Positions 271 to 28,834 of a DNA stretch of 43,121 bases are shown in pieces. The notes beneath the pieces were generated by a model, which did not search any database, was not told where the DNA came from, and saw nothing but the letters and a program-made list of their open reading frames with translations. The position numbers and the translations under genes are program-made. Numbering within the stretch: position 1 is the first letter of the stretch; every line of letters begins with the position of its first letter. This stretch comes from Nitrosotalea sp. (GTDB lineage: Archaea > Thermoproteota > Nitrososphaeria > Nitrososphaerales > Nitrosopumilaceae), in contig JAJPEA010000002.1 of the NCBI GenBank assembly GCA_023252335.1, forward strand, positions 1-43,121, given 5' to 3'.

Positions 271-1224
271 TTATTCTATTTGATCTAAATTAAGATCAAT
301 TCTCACACTTGCATCAGGTTCGTCCCAATCAAGTACATTGTCTTTTGGTATGAACCCAAGTGGGTCATACTTGTCAAAGCGTGTCTCCCCTTCAATTGAA
401 GTAAGCAGGACAACTTTGGAGTTTTCTCCTGCTGTGACTGACATGCTTACTCTAGTACTGTCATCTCCAAAAATTCCGCTTATTGTATTTACCATTGAAT
501 TCAAAACTCCTACTGGGACTTTGTTTCCGCCTACTACATACATTAGTGCACTTTTGATGTTATTTGGAGATGCGTCTTCGTATAGCATCTTGATAGAGTC
601 TCTAAGTGAGGTCTCTACGTCTGAAATATCCTTGCTAGTTGAAAGTATGCTTGTTTCAAGTGGTAATGATGAATTCTTTAGGGTGGATATTACGTGTAGC
701 AAGGCAGAATTTGTGATTTTATTGCATGCGTCTGGGGTAAGATCTGGGTTGCTCTCAAGTAATGCATCGTTGTCTATTATTACTGTACAATCTGAATTTG
801 TCTTTAGTCTCTTCAAAGAAACTCCTGAAAAGAATATCCTGTCTTTTTCAAACTTGAATGGCATGATTCCAAATGAGAGTGTACTCTTTCCTGCTTCTTT
901 GCTAATCTGAGATACTACAGGTGCAAGTGCAGCGCCTGATTTTCCTGCTAGGTTGGCAATGACCATTATTGTTGAATATCTACTAATTTTTTCTTCAATA
1001 GAACCTCTTGCACCAAATGATACGCCTCTTATGAGGTATGCAGACGGATTCAAAATAGGACTGGTATTAATCAAAATCTTTGAGGCGTCATGATTGAGAT
1101 CTCTTGCATCGTGGCTTATCAAAAGGCAATCATAGCCTAGTTTCTCCTTGATGTTGACAGCAAGCTTGCATCCTGCGCCACCTAGGCCTATGATTAAAAC
1201 TGGATCTTTCATCTGAAACTCCAT
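271..1224 (-). CDS. Divergent FtsZ-like (tubulin superfamily) protein
   Basis: N-terminal GLGGAGCKLAVNI resembles FtsZ GVGGGGGNAVN. LAGKSGAALAPVVSQISKEAGKSTLSFGIMPFKFE aligns with FtsZ GGGTGTGAAPVVAEIAK..TVGVVTRPFxFE, but the G-box is degenerate. Confidence 0.8.
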   Translation of the reverse strand: MEFQMKDPVLIIGLGGAGCKLAVNIKEKLGYDCLLISHDARDLNHDASKILINTSPILNPSAYLIRGVSFGARGSIEEKISRYSTIMVIANLAGKSGAALAPVVSQISKEAGKSTLSFGIMPFKFEKDRIFFSGVSLKRLKTNSDCTVIIDNDALLESNPDLTPDACNKITNSALLHVISTLKNSSLPLETSILSTSKDISDVETSLRDSIKMLYEDASPNNIKSALMYVVGGNKVPVGVLNSMVNTISGIFGDDSTRVSMSVTAGENSKVVLLTSIEGETRFDKYDPLGFIPKDNVLDWDEPDASVRIDLNLDQIE

Positions 1225-1297
1225 GACTCCCTTTTGCTTACAAAATTGATTAAAAAACTTTGTTGCTAGTTTTGATCTAAGCTCGGATCTAAAATAT

Positions 1298-2566
1298 TTA
1301 GCTCACTATGGTGCCATACAGACCATTTGGTGCTGCACCATCTATCTTGACGATGGCCTTTTTTCCTAGTTTGACCTTGTCATCTGTAACTATCTGCTTG
1401 TATGCAAAATTTCTTCCCTTTGTTATTCCGTCTGATATCTCATCGAACAAGACCTCTCCCTTCCAACCTATCCACTCTTCATTTCTTTGCTGAGAGATCT
1501 TTTTTGTCATATCAAAGACTAGCTTACTTCTGCGCTTGACCTCTGTAACATCAATCTGATCCATTTGGGCAGCCTTGGTGCCAGATCTTGGGCTATACCT
1601 TGAGAGGTTTACAATATCTGGCCTTGTCTCATCTATCAAGTCAATTGTTTTAGCAAAGTCTTCCTCTGTCTCTGTAGGAAAACCTACTATGATGTCAGTA
1701 GCAATGGTAAATCTATCAAATTTCTCTCTAAATGCAGAATTTACATCGTAGAATATCTTTGAGGTATGAAGCCTTTTCATATCTTTTAGGACTTTGTCGC
1801 TACCGCTTTGGACTGGAATGTGGAGAAACTTGAAGACTCGGTCGTTTGCAAAACTCTCCAAGAGATTGCTCTTGATGCGTGGAAGATACATGGGATTCAT
1901 CATTCCCACACGTATCATGAAATCATGTTCTATACTTGAGACACTTTGTACAAGTTCGGGTAGGTTTGAACCAATATCAAAACCATAACACCCATTATCA
2001 GTTGAGGTAAGCCACACCTCTACACAACCGTCTTTAATTTCATGTCGTACTTGTCTTACAATGTCTCCCACTCTATAGCTCTGCAAATCGCCTTTGGCTA
2101 TCTTTGTCTGACAAAATGTACACTCGCTCATACAACCGCTTGCTATCTCTATAATTCCAACTGCTGGATTGAGTCTAACCTTTGGAAGCCCCACCTTGCT
2201 GACATCGGTATCTGCAAGCTCTACCTTTCTTATTCCATTTAATGCAGAACTTATCACATCCAATGTCTTCCCAAGTGAATTTGGCCCAAGCAAACTTGCT
2301 TTTGGACTAAACTTTTCTACTGTTGACTGTTCTGCTTTGGGAAGGCAGCCTGCTACAACAAGTGGATTTGATTTTAGTTTTTTTATCCTATGTACCATCT
2401 TGTGTGCAGTAACATCTTTTACAGAACAAGTAACTATCACACTAAGATCAGAATCATTCTCATTTTCTGCAAGGCTATGTCCTCCATTTACAATTAGACC
2501 TGATATCATTTCTGAATCTGCAAAACTTGCAGAGCAACCATATGCCTCTACCCAGATCTTTGCCAT
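1298..2566 (-). CDS. MiaB-family tRNA methylthiotransferase, archaeal/e-MtaB (CDKAL1) type (ms2t6A37)
   Basis: Radical SAM motif GCMSECTFCQTKIAKG, N-terminal YGCSASFADSEMI, VAGCLP, C-terminal TRAM-like region. Confidence 0.93.
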   Translation of the reverse strand: MAKIWVEAYGCSASFADSEMISGLIVNGGHSLAENENDSDLSVIVTCSVKDVTAHKMVHRIKKLKSNPLVVAGCLPKAEQSTVEKFSPKASLLGPNSLGKTLDVISSALNGIRKVELADTDVSKVGLPKVRLNPAVGIIEIASGCMSECTFCQTKIAKGDLQSYRVGDIVRQVRHEIKDGCVEVWLTSTDNGCYGFDIGSNLPELVQSVSSIEHDFMIRVGMMNPMYLPRIKSNLLESFANDRVFKFLHIPVQSGSDKVLKDMKRLHTSKIFYDVNSAFREKFDRFTIATDIIVGFPTETEEDFAKTIDLIDETRPDIVNLSRYSPRSGTKAAQMDQIDVTEVKRRSKLVFDMTKKISQQRNEEWIGWKGEVLFDEISDGITKGRNFAYKQIVTDDKVKLGKKAIVKIDGAAPNGLYGTIVS

Positions 2567-2569
2567 TGT

Positions 2570-3970
2570 TTATCCAAGTAGTGCCTTTACTTCTTTTTCA
2601 GTCAACAATCCTTTTGCAATTACAAGTTGTCTGATTGTTTTTCCTGTCTTGAGAGATTCCTTGAATAAATCTGCCGAGACTTGGTATCCAATTTTTGGAG
2701 TAAGAAGTGTTACTATGACTGGACTATTTTCTATGTATTGGCTAAGCTTTGTCTTGTTTGCAGTCAAGCCGTCGATTAAGTTCCTTGAAAATATTGGAAC
2801 AAAATTTCTTAGCATATCCATGGAATCAAGAACTGATTTTAGCATTACAGGAAGCATGACATTGAGCTCAAATTGGCCTGCCTGTGCTGCAAGTGCCACA
2901 GTGGAATCCTTTCCAATTATGTCAAAACATACCATGTTCATACATTCAGCAAGTGATGGGTTTACCTTGCCTGGCATGATTGAAGATCCTGCATGAACTG
3001 CGGGAATGCCAATCTCTGATAGACCTGCAACAGGTCCTGATGCCATCAACCTGATGTCGTTTGATATTCTTCCAAGTTCTAATGCAAGATTTCTCAGAGT
3101 GGATGAAACTCTTGCAACTGCAAATCTACTTTCAAGTCCGAATTGCATGTCTTGTTCTGGTTTGAGTGAAAGTTTTGATATCTTGCCAAGCTCTGATATT
3201 ACAAGTGTTCTGTATCCCTTTGGAGTGTTTGCGCCAGAGCCTACTGCTGTTCCTCCTAGTGCAATGTGCTCAAGATCTTTTTTTGATTCAAAGATTGCAT
3301 CACGTGCCTTTGCAATTGCTGTAGCATATGCTGCAAATTCACTTCCAAGAGTTACTGGTAGTGCATCCATCAAGTGTGTCCTTCCAATTTTTTGATAACT
3401 TGAAAATTCTTTTGCCTTTTTAGTTAATGTCTTTACTAGTTCATCAATTGCGGGTATTACTTGGTTTACGTTAAATAAAATTGCAACATGCATTGCAGTT
3501 GGAAATGTATCATTACTTGACTGTGACATGTTCACATGGTCGTTTGGGTGTATGACTTCATAATTTCCTTTTTGCTTTCCAATTATCTCAAGTGCGATAT
3601 TTGCTATTACCTCATTTGTATTCATGTTAAATGCAGTTCCTGCACCAGAATTGATTGCCTCTACAACAAACTGATCAAGATGTTTTCCTGACAAGACTTG
3701 ATCACATGCCTTGATTATTGCATTCCCTCTTTTGGCATCAAGTGCCTTTACTTTCATATTTGCAACTGCTGCTGATCTTTTGATCATAACAAATGCCATG
3801 ATAAGATATGGATGGGATCTCTGTCCGCTTACATGATATTGTTTTATTGCTCTTGCTGTAAATGCGCCATAGTATGCTTCTGCTGGAATCTCTACTTTGC
3901 CCAAAGAATCAGAATCGGTTCTAAACTTCACGCCAAAACTAAAATTAATTTTCCTAATATGCATTCGCAT
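2570..3970 (-). CDS. fumC: Class II fumarase / aspartase family lyase (probably fumarate hydratase)
   Basis: Signature GSSIMPGKVNPSLAE, MSQSSNDTFPTAMH, GRTHLMDALPVTLG. True start is probably downstream of the first Met. Confidence 0.85.
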   Translation of the reverse strand: MRMHIRKINFSFGVKFRTDSDSLGKVEIPAEAYYGAFTARAIKQYHVSGQRSHPYLIMAFVMIKRSAAVANMKVKALDAKRGNAIIKACDQVLSGKHLDQFVVEAINSGAGTAFNMNTNEVIANIALEIIGKQKGNYEVIHPNDHVNMSQSSNDTFPTAMHVAILFNVNQVIPAIDELVKTLTKKAKEFSSYQKIGRTHLMDALPVTLGSEFAAYATAIAKARDAIFESKKDLEHIALGGTAVGSGANTPKGYRTLVISELGKISKLSLKPEQDMQFGLESRFAVARVSSTLRNLALELGRISNDIRLMASGPVAGLSEIGIPAVHAGSSIMPGKVNPSLAECMNMVCFDIIGKDSTVALAAQAGQFELNVMLPVMLKSVLDSMDMLRNFVPIFSRNLIDGLTANKTKLSQYIENSPVIVTLLTPKIGYQVSADLFKESLKTGKTIRQLVIAKGLLTEKEVKALLG

Positions 3971-15841: not shown

Positions 15842-16387
15842 TTATTTTCTCTTGATTGATAAGGTCTTTTGAACTTCATTTACGCTGCTTAGGAATTTTT
15901 GTTTGGCTTCATATTCGTCTGTTACCTTGATTGTTATCTCTGATGCTGCAAACATTACATCTTTGACAAGTATTGGTGGGGATAGTCCTAAAAGCTCACT
16001 TAGTATTGTCAATATGTTGTTAAAAACTGCATTATTTTTATAGTGAAAGACAGTGTTACCATCTGCAATCTTTGGGTTTGGCTCTAGGGGGATGACAAGC
16101 TCATGTGAAGTAAATTCTGTTATAAATAATGCAATATCCTCTTTTACTTTTGTACTGAGATCTTCTTTTTGTGCAACTAGCTTTTCTTTTGCCTTTTCCA
16201 AATCTACTGAAGCATCATAATAATCCTGACCTATCATCTTTGCAAACGTGGATTCAGTTGGACTCTTCAGTGGGATCTCATGAATTCTAAAATTCACTGT
16301 TGCAAGCTCATCCTCTGTATCTTTTAGTTGTGATCTATTTTCTCTGATGCGTGATGCAACCTGCTCTAGGAAGGCAAAGTCAGACAT
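15842..16387 (-). CDS. Coiled-coil protein of unknown function, coupled to the tubulin-like gene
   Basis: Heptad-like N-terminal half; start lies 2 nt after the tubulin-like gene end. Confidence 0.7.
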   Translation of the reverse strand: MSDFAFLEQVASRIRENRSQLKDTEDELATVNFRIHEIPLKSPTESTFAKMIGQDYYDASVDLEKAKEKLVAQKEDLSTKVKEDIALFITEFTSHELVIPLEPNPKIADGNTVFHYKNNAVFNNILTILSELLGLSPPILVKDVMFAASEITIKVTDEYEAKQKFLSSVNEVQKTLSIKRK

Positions 16388-16389
16388 TT

Positions 16390-17778
16390 CTAGCTAAACT
16401 CATGGACTACATCCATAAGACTTGCTTTGAATTCTTCTGTAGTCAATCCCCACTTGCCATATTCATCTTTGAATGCGTCCCATGAAGCTTCTGCTTCACT
16501 TGCAATCTCCAAGATCTTTGCCCCTATTGCCTTTGTGTTTACAAGTATGGTGACATTTGCTTGTTCGGTTTCTAGTATTGGAATCTTGATGAAAATCATT
16601 CTTGATTCCTCTATGTGGAATCTATCCTTTATGATGTTCTTTAGAGCATCTCTTTCTTTTGCTTCAAAGTCTCCTTTTACTTTTACCAATACACAGCAGG
16701 AATCCTTGGGTCCTCCCTTGTCTCTTATGTCGTTTTCATCAATATCAAACAAAACTGCATCCTCTTTCTTGTTGATGTGCTCTACAATTCCCTCCATTGT
16801 ATTGTGTTTGGTACTTGCCATCAAATCAGAATTCCACTGCCTCTCTTCTGGAATCACTGGAATTACCCACGTAATTGCAAATCTTGGTCTCTTTGTTGCA
16901 AGCCACGTTCTATAGTTTGACATGTCCCATTCTGTCTCCCTTGCAAAAGATGCAGTAAACATGGAAATTGCATTTGCTGCAATCAAGTTCATTCCTCTGT
17001 AATCCTTCCAGCCTACTTCGTGTTCTTTTGGAAGATCATCTATGATTGAGGACATTTTGTCTAGTCTCTTTTCATGTTTCTGTGCAAGTTCTCTTAGTCT
17101 TTTATTTGAAAATAAGATTGAACAGTCACTATATTTTATCTGGTGTTCAAGATTCATGACGATATTGATTGCAGATGCTTCTAGAATTACTGGGTCCCAT
17201 CCAAATTCTGGTAATAGGCCAAATGATGCAATTGTAGCATGTTCCTTTGTGTCCTTTTTGATGTATTGCATAAAGGCACTTGCAAATGAAGCCCCTGTAC
17301 CACCACCCATTGCAAATGGAATTGTAAAACCTCTTACTGGTTCTGGAGAAAGACTTGCAAGTTGTTTTTGCATGTCATACTTTGTGCTTACTTCTTTGAT
17401 GAATCTAGTACGGCCCTCTGCCCAGTTTCTAGCTGCACCGCCTGCACCAGAAATTACATGCTTGTCTCTTAAAGCAAACAGGTCTGGGTATGACTGTAAA
17501 ATCAAATTGGCAGCTCGTGGGTCTAGATCAATTAAGAGTGCTCTTGGAATAAGCGGAATCTCACTTCCACCATATGCATTTGGAAATCGTAAAATTGTAC
17601 TTCCGTATCTTTTGAGTATGCGGGACTCGTCTTTTTCACCCTTTAATGTTGGCTTTAATGGATCTGCTCCGACATCAATCAATAGTCTTCGATATGATTC
17701 TGCACCAAGACCAATCCCACAGTGACCAAAACATGTCATTATAACTGGCGCTGGTGGTAATGGAGCAAATTTTGACAA
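16390..17778 (-). CDS. Tubulin-superfamily GTPase (tubulin/artubulin-like)
   Basis: TTG start. FGHCGIGLGAESYRRL resembles tubulin QCGNQIGxxFWE; IPRALLIDLDPRAANLI resembles VPRAVxVDLEPxxxDxV; SGAGGAARNWAEGR resembles SGAGNNWAKGH; FAMGGGTGASFAS matches the tubulin G-box. Confidence 0.87.
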   Translation of the reverse strand: MSKFAPLPPAPVIMTCFGHCGIGLGAESYRRLLIDVGADPLKPTLKGEKDESRILKRYGSTILRFPNAYGGSEIPLIPRALLIDLDPRAANLILQSYPDLFALRDKHVISGAGGAARNWAEGRTRFIKEVSTKYDMQKQLASLSPEPVRGFTIPFAMGGGTGASFASAFMQYIKKDTKEHATIASFGLLPEFGWDPVILEASAINIVMNLEHQIKYSDCSILFSNKRLRELAQKHEKRLDKMSSIIDDLPKEHEVGWKDYRGMNLIAANAISMFTASFARETEWDMSNYRTWLATKRPRFAITWVIPVIPEERQWNSDLMASTKHNTMEGIVEHINKKEDAVLFDIDENDIRDKGGPKDSCCVLVKVKGDFEAKERDALKNIIKDRFHIEESRMIFIKIPILETEQANVTILVNTKAIGAKILEIASEAEASWDAFKDEYGKWGLTTEEFKASLMDVVHEFS

Positions 17779-17935
17779 GTCTAATCACTAATTGAAACTA
17801 GAACTTGTCTCTTTAATGGTATTGTCCAAGATTGTACAGTCCATGCTTGATAGTTGTAGACATGATGTTGCTTTTGTTCCAATTTTAATCCTGGAAATTA
17901 GATTATTCTTTTTGAATTTAAGATTTAAGAATGAT

Positions 17936-18232
17936 TTATCCTTCTTCTGTCAGAGCTTGTTTGAGCACACGAAATTCTTCTATTGATATTTGTCCTTCTG
18001 CAAGTCTAATTCGGAGAAGTTCGATGGATGTATCTTTTTTGGGTGGAGTTGTGACTTGGGGTTGCTCTACTGTATTATTGGATGACTCTAGCAAATCATG
18101 GATGTATCTATAATCTGACATGACAATTGGCTCATCATTTTTTACAGTCTCCATTATCTCTCGTAGTCTTTTTGGATTTCCTTTACCTGCTGCAAGCAAA
18201 CCCTTGATTGTTTTTAACATATCTTCTGACAT
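17936..18232 (-). CDS. Small SHOCT-like protein
   Basis: C-terminal ELLRIRLAEGQISIEEFRVLKQAL (SHOCT-like). N-terminal module also occurs in the 28067-28834 protein. Confidence 0.7.
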   Translation of the reverse strand: MSEDMLKTIKGLLAAGKGNPKRLREIMETVKNDEPIVMSDYRYIHDLLESSNNTVEQPQVTTPPKKDTSIELLRIRLAEGQISIEEFRVLKQALTEEG

Positions 18233-18233
18233 T

Positions 18234-19043
18234 TTATTTCACTATTGTCTTGAATCTGGGATCCCCTTTTATCTTATCGAATGACGAGTCTTTGATGGCC
18301 CAGCTTTTTATGGTTTTGCCATAATGCGATATTGCCTGTGCAAGAAGAACAAGGGCATCATCGTTTTGTCCTATCTGGGCTTTACTTCTTGCCTTTGCAT
18401 AAATTATTGTACCGTTTTTTGGAAACTCTTTTAGTATTTTATCAAAGATTATGATTGCCTCATCATGTCTGCCAAGCTCTGACAGTTCTGTTGCCTTGTA
18501 AAATATTGCCTCATTGTTTTCTGGTTCTTTTTCCAAAATTTTATCAAAGTATGACAATGCATCTTCATGTTTTTTTTGTTTGCCAAGCACCAATCCTTTA
18601 TAGTGCATTGCTTGCATGTTTTCTGGTTCTTTGTCAAGTACCTTGTTTAAACAATTTATGGCATCATCATACTTTTCAAGTCTGATTGATGTAATTCCTT
18701 TGTTATACAATGCTGGTAGATATTCTGGTTCATTTGATAATGCCCTGTCATAATATGTAACTGCTTTTTCAAATTGCTGCAACTCTGCAAAATGATTTCC
18801 TAGATTGTTTAATGCGTCAACATGATTGGAATCATATTCGATTATTTTCTCAAAGCATGATATGGCATCTTTGTTTTTCTTTAGCTTCAGAAGAGACATT
18901 CCTTTGTTATATAATGCGTCTACGTTTTTTGGGTCTTGTTTTAGTGCCTTGTCAAAAAATGATATGGCATCTTTGTGTTTTTCAATCTTGGCATAACTTA
19001 TTCCTTCTAAAACTGTTCTTTCCGTTTGATTTTTTTCACTCAT
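18234..19043 (-). CDS. TPR-repeat protein
   Basis: About seven 34-aa repeats, e.g. DALYNKGMSLLKLKKNKDAISCFEKIIEYDSNHV. Confidence 0.92.
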   Translation of the reverse strand: MSEKNQTERTVLEGISYAKIEKHKDAISFFDKALKQDPKNVDALYNKGMSLLKLKKNKDAISCFEKIIEYDSNHVDALNNLGNHFAELQQFEKAVTYYDRALSNEPEYLPALYNKGITSIRLEKYDDAINCLNKVLDKEPENMQAMHYKGLVLGKQKKHEDALSYFDKILEKEPENNEAIFYKATELSELGRHDEAIIIFDKILKEFPKNGTIIYAKARSKAQIGQNDDALVLLAQAISHYGKTIKSWAIKDSSFDKIKGDPRFKTIVK

Positions 19044-28066: not shown

Positions 28067-28834
28067 CTAGGGAAAGCAATCAAACGTACCTGGTGGTGGA
28101 TTTTTTATCCTATTCTGAAAGTCTTCAGCCGCATATTTCTGGTCCACCGAATATGGGATGAATCCAAAGATTGGTGCACTAACAGAAGTTGTTATGGTTG
28201 CCTTGGATGGATCAAATGTGGCATTTTCTTGTCCGATTCTGGTCACGGCATCCTTGTTTATGGCAAATATTCCATCTAATGTAGCAGCTGATTTTGGTGA
28301 CAGTGTGGAACCGCCAACTGTAGCTTTTTCTATAACATCTGAATTGTAAAATGCATCTATCTCATACTTGGTAAATGTAGCTGGAAAATATGATGGATTA
28401 CATGCATCAGTTTGTATGCTAAGTTCAGTATCTGAAATTGCTACCTGTTGACCGTGATGAGGGCGAAATTGTAAACTGTCTACTGCATATACGTCTAGCC
28501 CAATGTATGCAACAATTATGATTGCTGCAATGATGCCTATTGAGGCATATTTTTTAGTGGACATTTTCTTTACAGGCTTGGTCTCTGTCTGTATAGACTC
28601 AGGACTTGGAACCGTATTGTCTGGTATACTTTCTGGTTTAGAATCTATATTGTTATCACTTGAAACTTGATTGGTTTGAGGTTGATTTTCTATCAAATTT
28701 TCTATGTATTGATGATCTTCAAAGGAAACAGGTTCACCATTTTTGACTCTAGTCAGAATATTTTGTAATCTTTCAGTGTCTCCTTTCTGGGATTTTATCA
28801 ACTCCTCAATTTTAGCGGCAAGATCTTCTGACAT
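28067..28834 (-). CDS. Single-TM protein with an N-terminal module shared with the 17936-18232 protein
   Basis: MSEDLAAKIEELIKSQKGDTERLQNILTRVKNGEPVSFEDHQYIENLIE, then TM and extracytoplasmic domain. Confidence 0.7.
   Translation of the reverse strand: MSEDLAAKIEELIKSQKGDTERLQNILTRVKNGEPVSFEDHQYIENLIENQPQTNQVSSDNNIDSKPESIPDNTVPSPESIQTETKPVKKMSTKKYASIGIIAAIIIVAYIGLDVYAVDSLQFRPHHGQQVAISDTELSIQTDACNPSYFPATFTKYEIDAFYNSDVIEKATVGGSTLSPKSAATLDGIFAINKDAVTRIGQENATFDPSKATITTSVSAPIFGFIPYSVDQKYAAEDFQNRIKNPPPGTFDCFP

Follow-up and report, generated by a model that had tools for sequence, protein, structure and literature searches.

Artubulin of Nitrososphaerota and a coiled-coil protein gene as its constant neighbour

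Artubulin was described in Nitrosarchaeum in 2012 (Yutin and Koonin, PMC3349469) and in Nitrosotenuis, with Nitrosotenuis uzonensis, in 2013 (PMC3835317), and since 2012 its possible kinship with the ancestor of eukaryotic tubulin has been under discussion. A cell-division link between artubulin and an ESCRT-III (Snf7/CdvB-type) protein was proposed in the 2012 report from the adjacency of the two genes in Nitrosarchaeum (PMC3349469), whereas such proximity was reported to be lacking in Nitrosotenuis uzonensis (PMC3835317). No functional test of artubulin was found in the open-access literature searched. The closest systems outside the family are the Asgard tubulins AtubA/AtubB and OdinTubulin, and the BtubA/BtubB operon of Prosthecobacter, in which a gene for a TPR protein (bacterial kinesin light chain) lies near the tubulin-family genes. 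Here, we describe an artubulin locus that has no Snf7 neighbour and compare it with the other loci of the family, in which a small coiled-coil protein gene is the constant partner.

The window locus and the artubulin family

The window, by which we mean the whole 43,121-nt stretch of DNA analysed, contains four co-directional genes on the minus strand: a TPR protein gene (18234-19043; 269 aa; Pfam TPR_2, 1.2e-39), a gene for a SHOCT-like small protein (17936-18232; 98 aa), a tubulin-like gene (16390-17778; 462 aa, TTG start; Pfam Tubulin, 5e-16, 60 bits against a cut-off of 33) and a gene for a coiled-coil plus alpha/beta protein (15842-16387; 181 aa), hereafter CC. According to an ORF check of the window, they are separated by 1, 157 and 2 nt in this order. 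The arrangement, coordinates and spacings given by an earlier sequence-only reading were thus exact on re-check, and the Pfam matches confirmed its TPR and tubulin-like GTPase assignments. Its SHOCT-like label held in part: there is a match (E 0.0046, residues 70-94 only), but at 17.1 bits it is below the Pfam cut-off of 27. CC matched no family in Pfam or NCBIfam. All four ORFs are kept open in relatives, indicating that they are real genes and not chance ORFs.

The tubulin-like gene encodes artubulin, an archaeal protein related to eukaryotic tubulins. Among the PDB matches listed, the best were tubulins of Asgard archaea and of eukaryotes (E down to 8.9e-17), and the protein is closer to tubulins than to FtsZ, its profile-profile match to two FtsZ sequences being very weak. 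Over about 460 aa it is 75-77% identical to Nitrosarchaeum sp. proteins and 79% identical to a Ca. Nitrosotenuis chungbukensis protein, where the comparison was made with proteins of these genera and not with the exact published accessions. The window protein therefore belongs to the same family as the known artubulins, with which it also shares tubulin-like best matches and a coexisting divergent FtsZ. A 95% identical artubulin in Ca. Nitrosotalea devanaterra places the window genome near Nitrosotalea. Of the solved structures, the Asgard tubulins match best (E about 1e-16) and have the GGGTG signature in common with artubulin; the PDB entry 7evb, titled 'tubulin-like protein' and presumably OdinTubulin, matched at E 5e-12. 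However, artubulin aligns with the Asgard proteins over the first ~240 residues only, its T7 motif appears different, and it is usually single per genome, unlike the A/B pair of AtubA/AtubB.

In the same genome there is a separate FtsZ. A divergent thaumarchaeal FtsZ (271-1224, minus strand, 317 aa) is the second tubulin-superfamily gene of the window; it has ANLAGKSG instead of the GGGTG signature of artubulin, and a neighbourhood of its own. Genome G000 has two tubulin-superfamily genes, and each of the 16 genomes tested has two or more. The divergent FtsZ adjoins an apparent MtaB-like methylthiotransferase gene and a fumarase-type gene (271-3970, minus strand), and the same types of neighbour occur beside FtsZ in f2 genomes (L203-L206), with a similar methylthiotransferase alongside in f3 (L207).

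When the window artubulin was used as the query, 23 of the 398 sampled Nitrososphaerota genomes had artubulin, all of them Nitrosopumilaceae and representing six genera. Distant artubulins were missed by this search and were found only by a pattern search, after which one of them served as a query. These are 52-58% identical and occur in lineages mostly titled Nitrososphaerota, Nitrososphaeria or Thaumarchaeota, so that the family spans at least six genera of Nitrosopumilaceae and more distant Nitrososphaerota.

CC beside artubulin

In all the 23 artubulin genomes of the phylum sample, CC lies directly 3' of artubulin. Among the mapped loci (n = 23, the window and 22 others), CC was directly downstream in 22, and the remaining locus (L031) also has CC, its apparent lack being an ORF-calling artefact. 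Scanning of further loci, those from the collection of named genomes included, gave CC next to artubulin in 75 of the 75 whose contig continues; the three artubulin ORFs that lack it (L077, L082 and L083) are all near contig ends. Spacing between the two genes stayed within -4 to +18 nt at almost all loci, and the few larger overlaps are artefacts of choosing the start of the longest ORF. Despite repeated rearrangement of the surroundings, the two genes stay linked at artubulin identities from 52% to 98%. Within the 398-genome sample, moreover, a full-length CC with a strong match is present in the 23 artubulin genomes and in no others, and in the sampled Nitrosopumilaceae without artubulin, CC is absent or a pseudogene. 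The distances in the artubulin and CC trees correlated (Mantel r 0.982, 0 of 999 permutations), a correlation that vertical descent of linked genes would produce as well.

Matches of the CC profile to CC fragments flagged two genomes from which artubulin has been lost. In G303, which belongs to the same genus as the window genome, artubulin and most of the SHOCT-like gene and CC are deleted and TPR is intact; at the scar, the SHOCT-like gene ends after ~19 codons and joins CC from about codon 140. In G386, a g4 genome, artubulin is gone, CC is a frame-broken pseudogene remnant, and the Snf7 gene (84% identity) and the MscS-like gene are intact. The sole tubulin-superfamily gene left in each genome is the divergent FtsZ. 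We take these as two independent losses of the artubulin-CC pair, in which TPR and Snf7, respectively, were spared, although the loss of CC in G303 could be a side effect of one deletion hitting both the SHOCT-like gene and CC. Adjacency, conserved order, co-inheritance and two joint losses make artubulin and CC a well-supported two-gene unit, and we consider it likely that the pair is an operon in which CC is the dedicated partner.

The structure model of CC (pLDDT 91.4, from a 22-sequence alignment) has helices at residues 4-37, 41-51 and 59-92 and, after them, an alpha/beta domain. A search of this fold against PDB and viral models gave no match at E < 0.001. Weak helical-bundle matches, tubulin cofactor A (E 1.1) among them, carry no meaning. 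CC-like genes also occur without artubulin (L136-L139, L141, L142 and L144): those of f2 are full-length and lie beside a radical-SAM-like gene, and those of f3 comprise the C-terminal half only, two of the three being beside an apparent NEP1 gene. An archaellum-like cluster is also near the f2 genes. The tubulin-superfamily genes read in the f2 and f3 genomes were of FtsZ type and did not match the artubulin profile. From these relatives it follows that the CC family also exists apart from artubulin, and the CC domain is therefore older than the pairing with artubulin or is used beyond it.

Variable neighbours and alternative explanations

The genes around the artubulin-CC pair differ between lineages. 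In Nitrosotenuis, an Nre-family gene lies upstream and an exosortase-like gene downstream, and the corresponding neighbours in Nitrosarchaeum are Snf7 and an MscS-like gene. In the distant group, the flanking genes include apparent ribosomal-protein genes; a ~312-aa gene follows CC in L114, L120 and L112, near apparent ribosomal-protein, Ndk and IF2 genes, and its L114 copy has no Pfam match. A Nitrosotenuis-like artubulin-CC locus was also found in an assembly titled Gammaproteobacteria bacterium BBSC-SA02 (L080), which is apparently mixed, as it also contains a bacterial-type FtsZ (L145).

The sequence-only reading had proposed that the four genes of the window form one structural module of a polymerising GTPase packaged with scaffolds, and had named neighbourhood conservation across Nitrososphaerota as a check. 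The pairing of artubulin with the coiled-coil gene was indeed conserved across the phylum; TPR and SHOCT proved to be local flankers. In the mapped loci, TPR adjoins artubulin only in g1 and g5, where all four genes are co-directional and syntenic, and the SHOCT-like gene is beside artubulin only in these and in L079. As neighbours of artubulin, the two genes are confined to the Nitrosotalea-type genus and the lineages closest to it, and neither lies beside artubulin in Nitrosotenuis, Nitrosarchaeum, g7, g10 or the distant group. An upstream Na+/H+ antiporter gene and an aminopeptidase-like gene are equally restricted and about as syntenic. The presence of a TPR protein in the Prosthecobacter tubulin operons (PMC3349469) would favour the module, and artubulin has such a neighbour likewise, in Nitrosotalea only; however, the locus has a single tubulin gene where Prosthecobacter has two, TPR is linked just locally and does not stay with artubulin, and it is the coiled-coil gene that remains constant. 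A Btub-like role for TPR was rejected for its local linkage and its persistence after artubulin loss. Given, in addition, the intact TPR of G303 and the 157-nt gap with its conserved leader that sets the pairs apart, a four-gene module is very improbable, and TPR and SHOCT are a separate neighbouring pair outside the artubulin-CC unit. The tubulin of the combination is not new, being the artubulin already described (PMC3349469, PMC3835317). The N-terminal domain of the SHOCT-like protein recurs in many unrelated proteins of varied length, in 51 of 121 Nitrosopumilaceae genomes; in the window itself, the N-terminal ~55 aa of the protein encoded at 28067-28834 (minus strand) resemble it.

Partnership of artubulin with the ESCRT-III protein in cell division agrees with the Snf7 gene (Pfam 9.4e-10) found directly upstream in all the five mapped artubulin-bearing g4 genomes, but no Snf7 gene is adjacent in the mapped loci of other genera, the window included, the proximity was reported lacking in Nitrosotenuis uzonensis, as cited above, and Snf7 of G386 remains intact despite the loss of artubulin and the decay of CC. 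We therefore regard this partnership as unlikely, and the Snf7 adjacency is a lineage feature of g4 that does not define artubulin. Somewhat less likely still is that CC is an independent housekeeping protein linked stably to artubulin by chance: the relatives in f2 and f3, with their radical-SAM-like and apparent NEP1 neighbours, would agree with such a role, but not the linkage that outlasts the rearrangements, nor the absence or decay of CC in sampled Nitrosopumilaceae wherever artubulin is absent. A further reading is a TubZ-like DNA-segregation system in which CC would be the DNA adaptor. Such systems pair a tubulin-family GTPase with a small partner protein in a two-gene unit, of which the artubulin-CC arrangement is reminiscent. 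The CC model and the searches contained no helix-turn-helix apart from a single weak HTH_19 match in one of 22 members, and in single-contig genomes the two genes are chromosomal, which leaves this reading the least probable.

Leader, T7 region and proposed mechanism

The leader between the SHOCT-like gene and artubulin (17779-17935, minus strand, 157 nt) contains a conserved element, ATGTCTAYAACNATCAAG, at 17846-17863 (minus strand). Nitrosotalea-type genomes and g5 have the element upstream of artubulin, and it is recognisable in some Nitrosotenuis; exact matches were found in four genomes, a single copy in each, and every copy lies upstream of artubulin. The element opens a 16-codon ORF (MSTTIKHGLYNLGQYH). 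Relatives mostly preserve the start and stop of this ORF as well as its length, its codon-position signal is weak (2.11, 2.42, 2.79), and the element may act as DNA or RNA rather than be coding. An SD-like GTGAT precedes the TTG start of artubulin, and in the distant group a TATA-like CGTATAAAAAAG is located about 30 nt upstream of the artubulin start. The conserved leader element and the TATA-like sequence would both fit a transcription start at artubulin and not at TPR, and judged from these sequences the leader likely carries artubulin's own promoter.

The tubulin GTP signature (GGGTG[ST]G-like) is kept, as MGGGTGAS in the window artubulin and as GGGTG[ASG] across all the sequences aligned. 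The T7 motif is NxDxxE in alpha-tubulin and NxDxxD in FtsZ. The stretch RETEWDMSN[YF]RTWL is invariant in 20 artubulin sequences, down to about 53% identity, and by manual alignment we take the alpha-tubulin T7 loop NVDLTEFQTNL to be its counterpart. The invariant E283-W-D285-M-S-N288 would then put asparagine at the T7 catalytic position; this placement is manual because phmmer and hhalign alignments to tubulins and FtsZ end before T7, and the artubulin structure model (pLDDT 40, 16 closely related sequences) was too poor to check it. E254 is catalytic in alpha-tubulin, and K254 of beta-tubulin is non-catalytic (PMC13394414). Artubulin thus appears to carry asparagine where alpha-tubulin has the T7 catalytic glutamate, and with this residue apparently invariant, self-stimulated GTP hydrolysis may be slow. 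It is a doubtful further step, about as improbable as the chance linkage of CC discussed above, that artubulin has lost the T7 acid and that CC is an obligate partner completing or gating the GTPase; if true, this archaeal cytoskeleton would have two components and would differ from FtsZ, CetZ and microtubules alike.

For the two-gene operon with a dedicated partner, we propose that artubulin and CC are co-transcribed from a promoter just upstream of artubulin, and that artubulin would bind GTP and most likely assemble into protofilaments with slow intrinsic hydrolysis in the polymer. The long helical hairpin and compact alpha/beta head of CC would most likely bind artubulin, and CC may control filament assembly or attach the filaments to another cell structure.

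A discussion of CC was not found in the artubulin papers of the open-access literature searched; an earlier mention elsewhere is possible, and the entry '12, conserved hypothetical protein' in the legend to Figure 2B of the 2012 report (PMC3349469) could be CC. As far as we found in that literature, the constant partner CC, the scars of joint loss and the T7 feature had not been described. The results argue against relying on the Snf7 adjacency, which has guided thinking on the role of artubulin, and the constant partner, the wider family and the two genomes with natural losses give direct, testable handles on artubulin.
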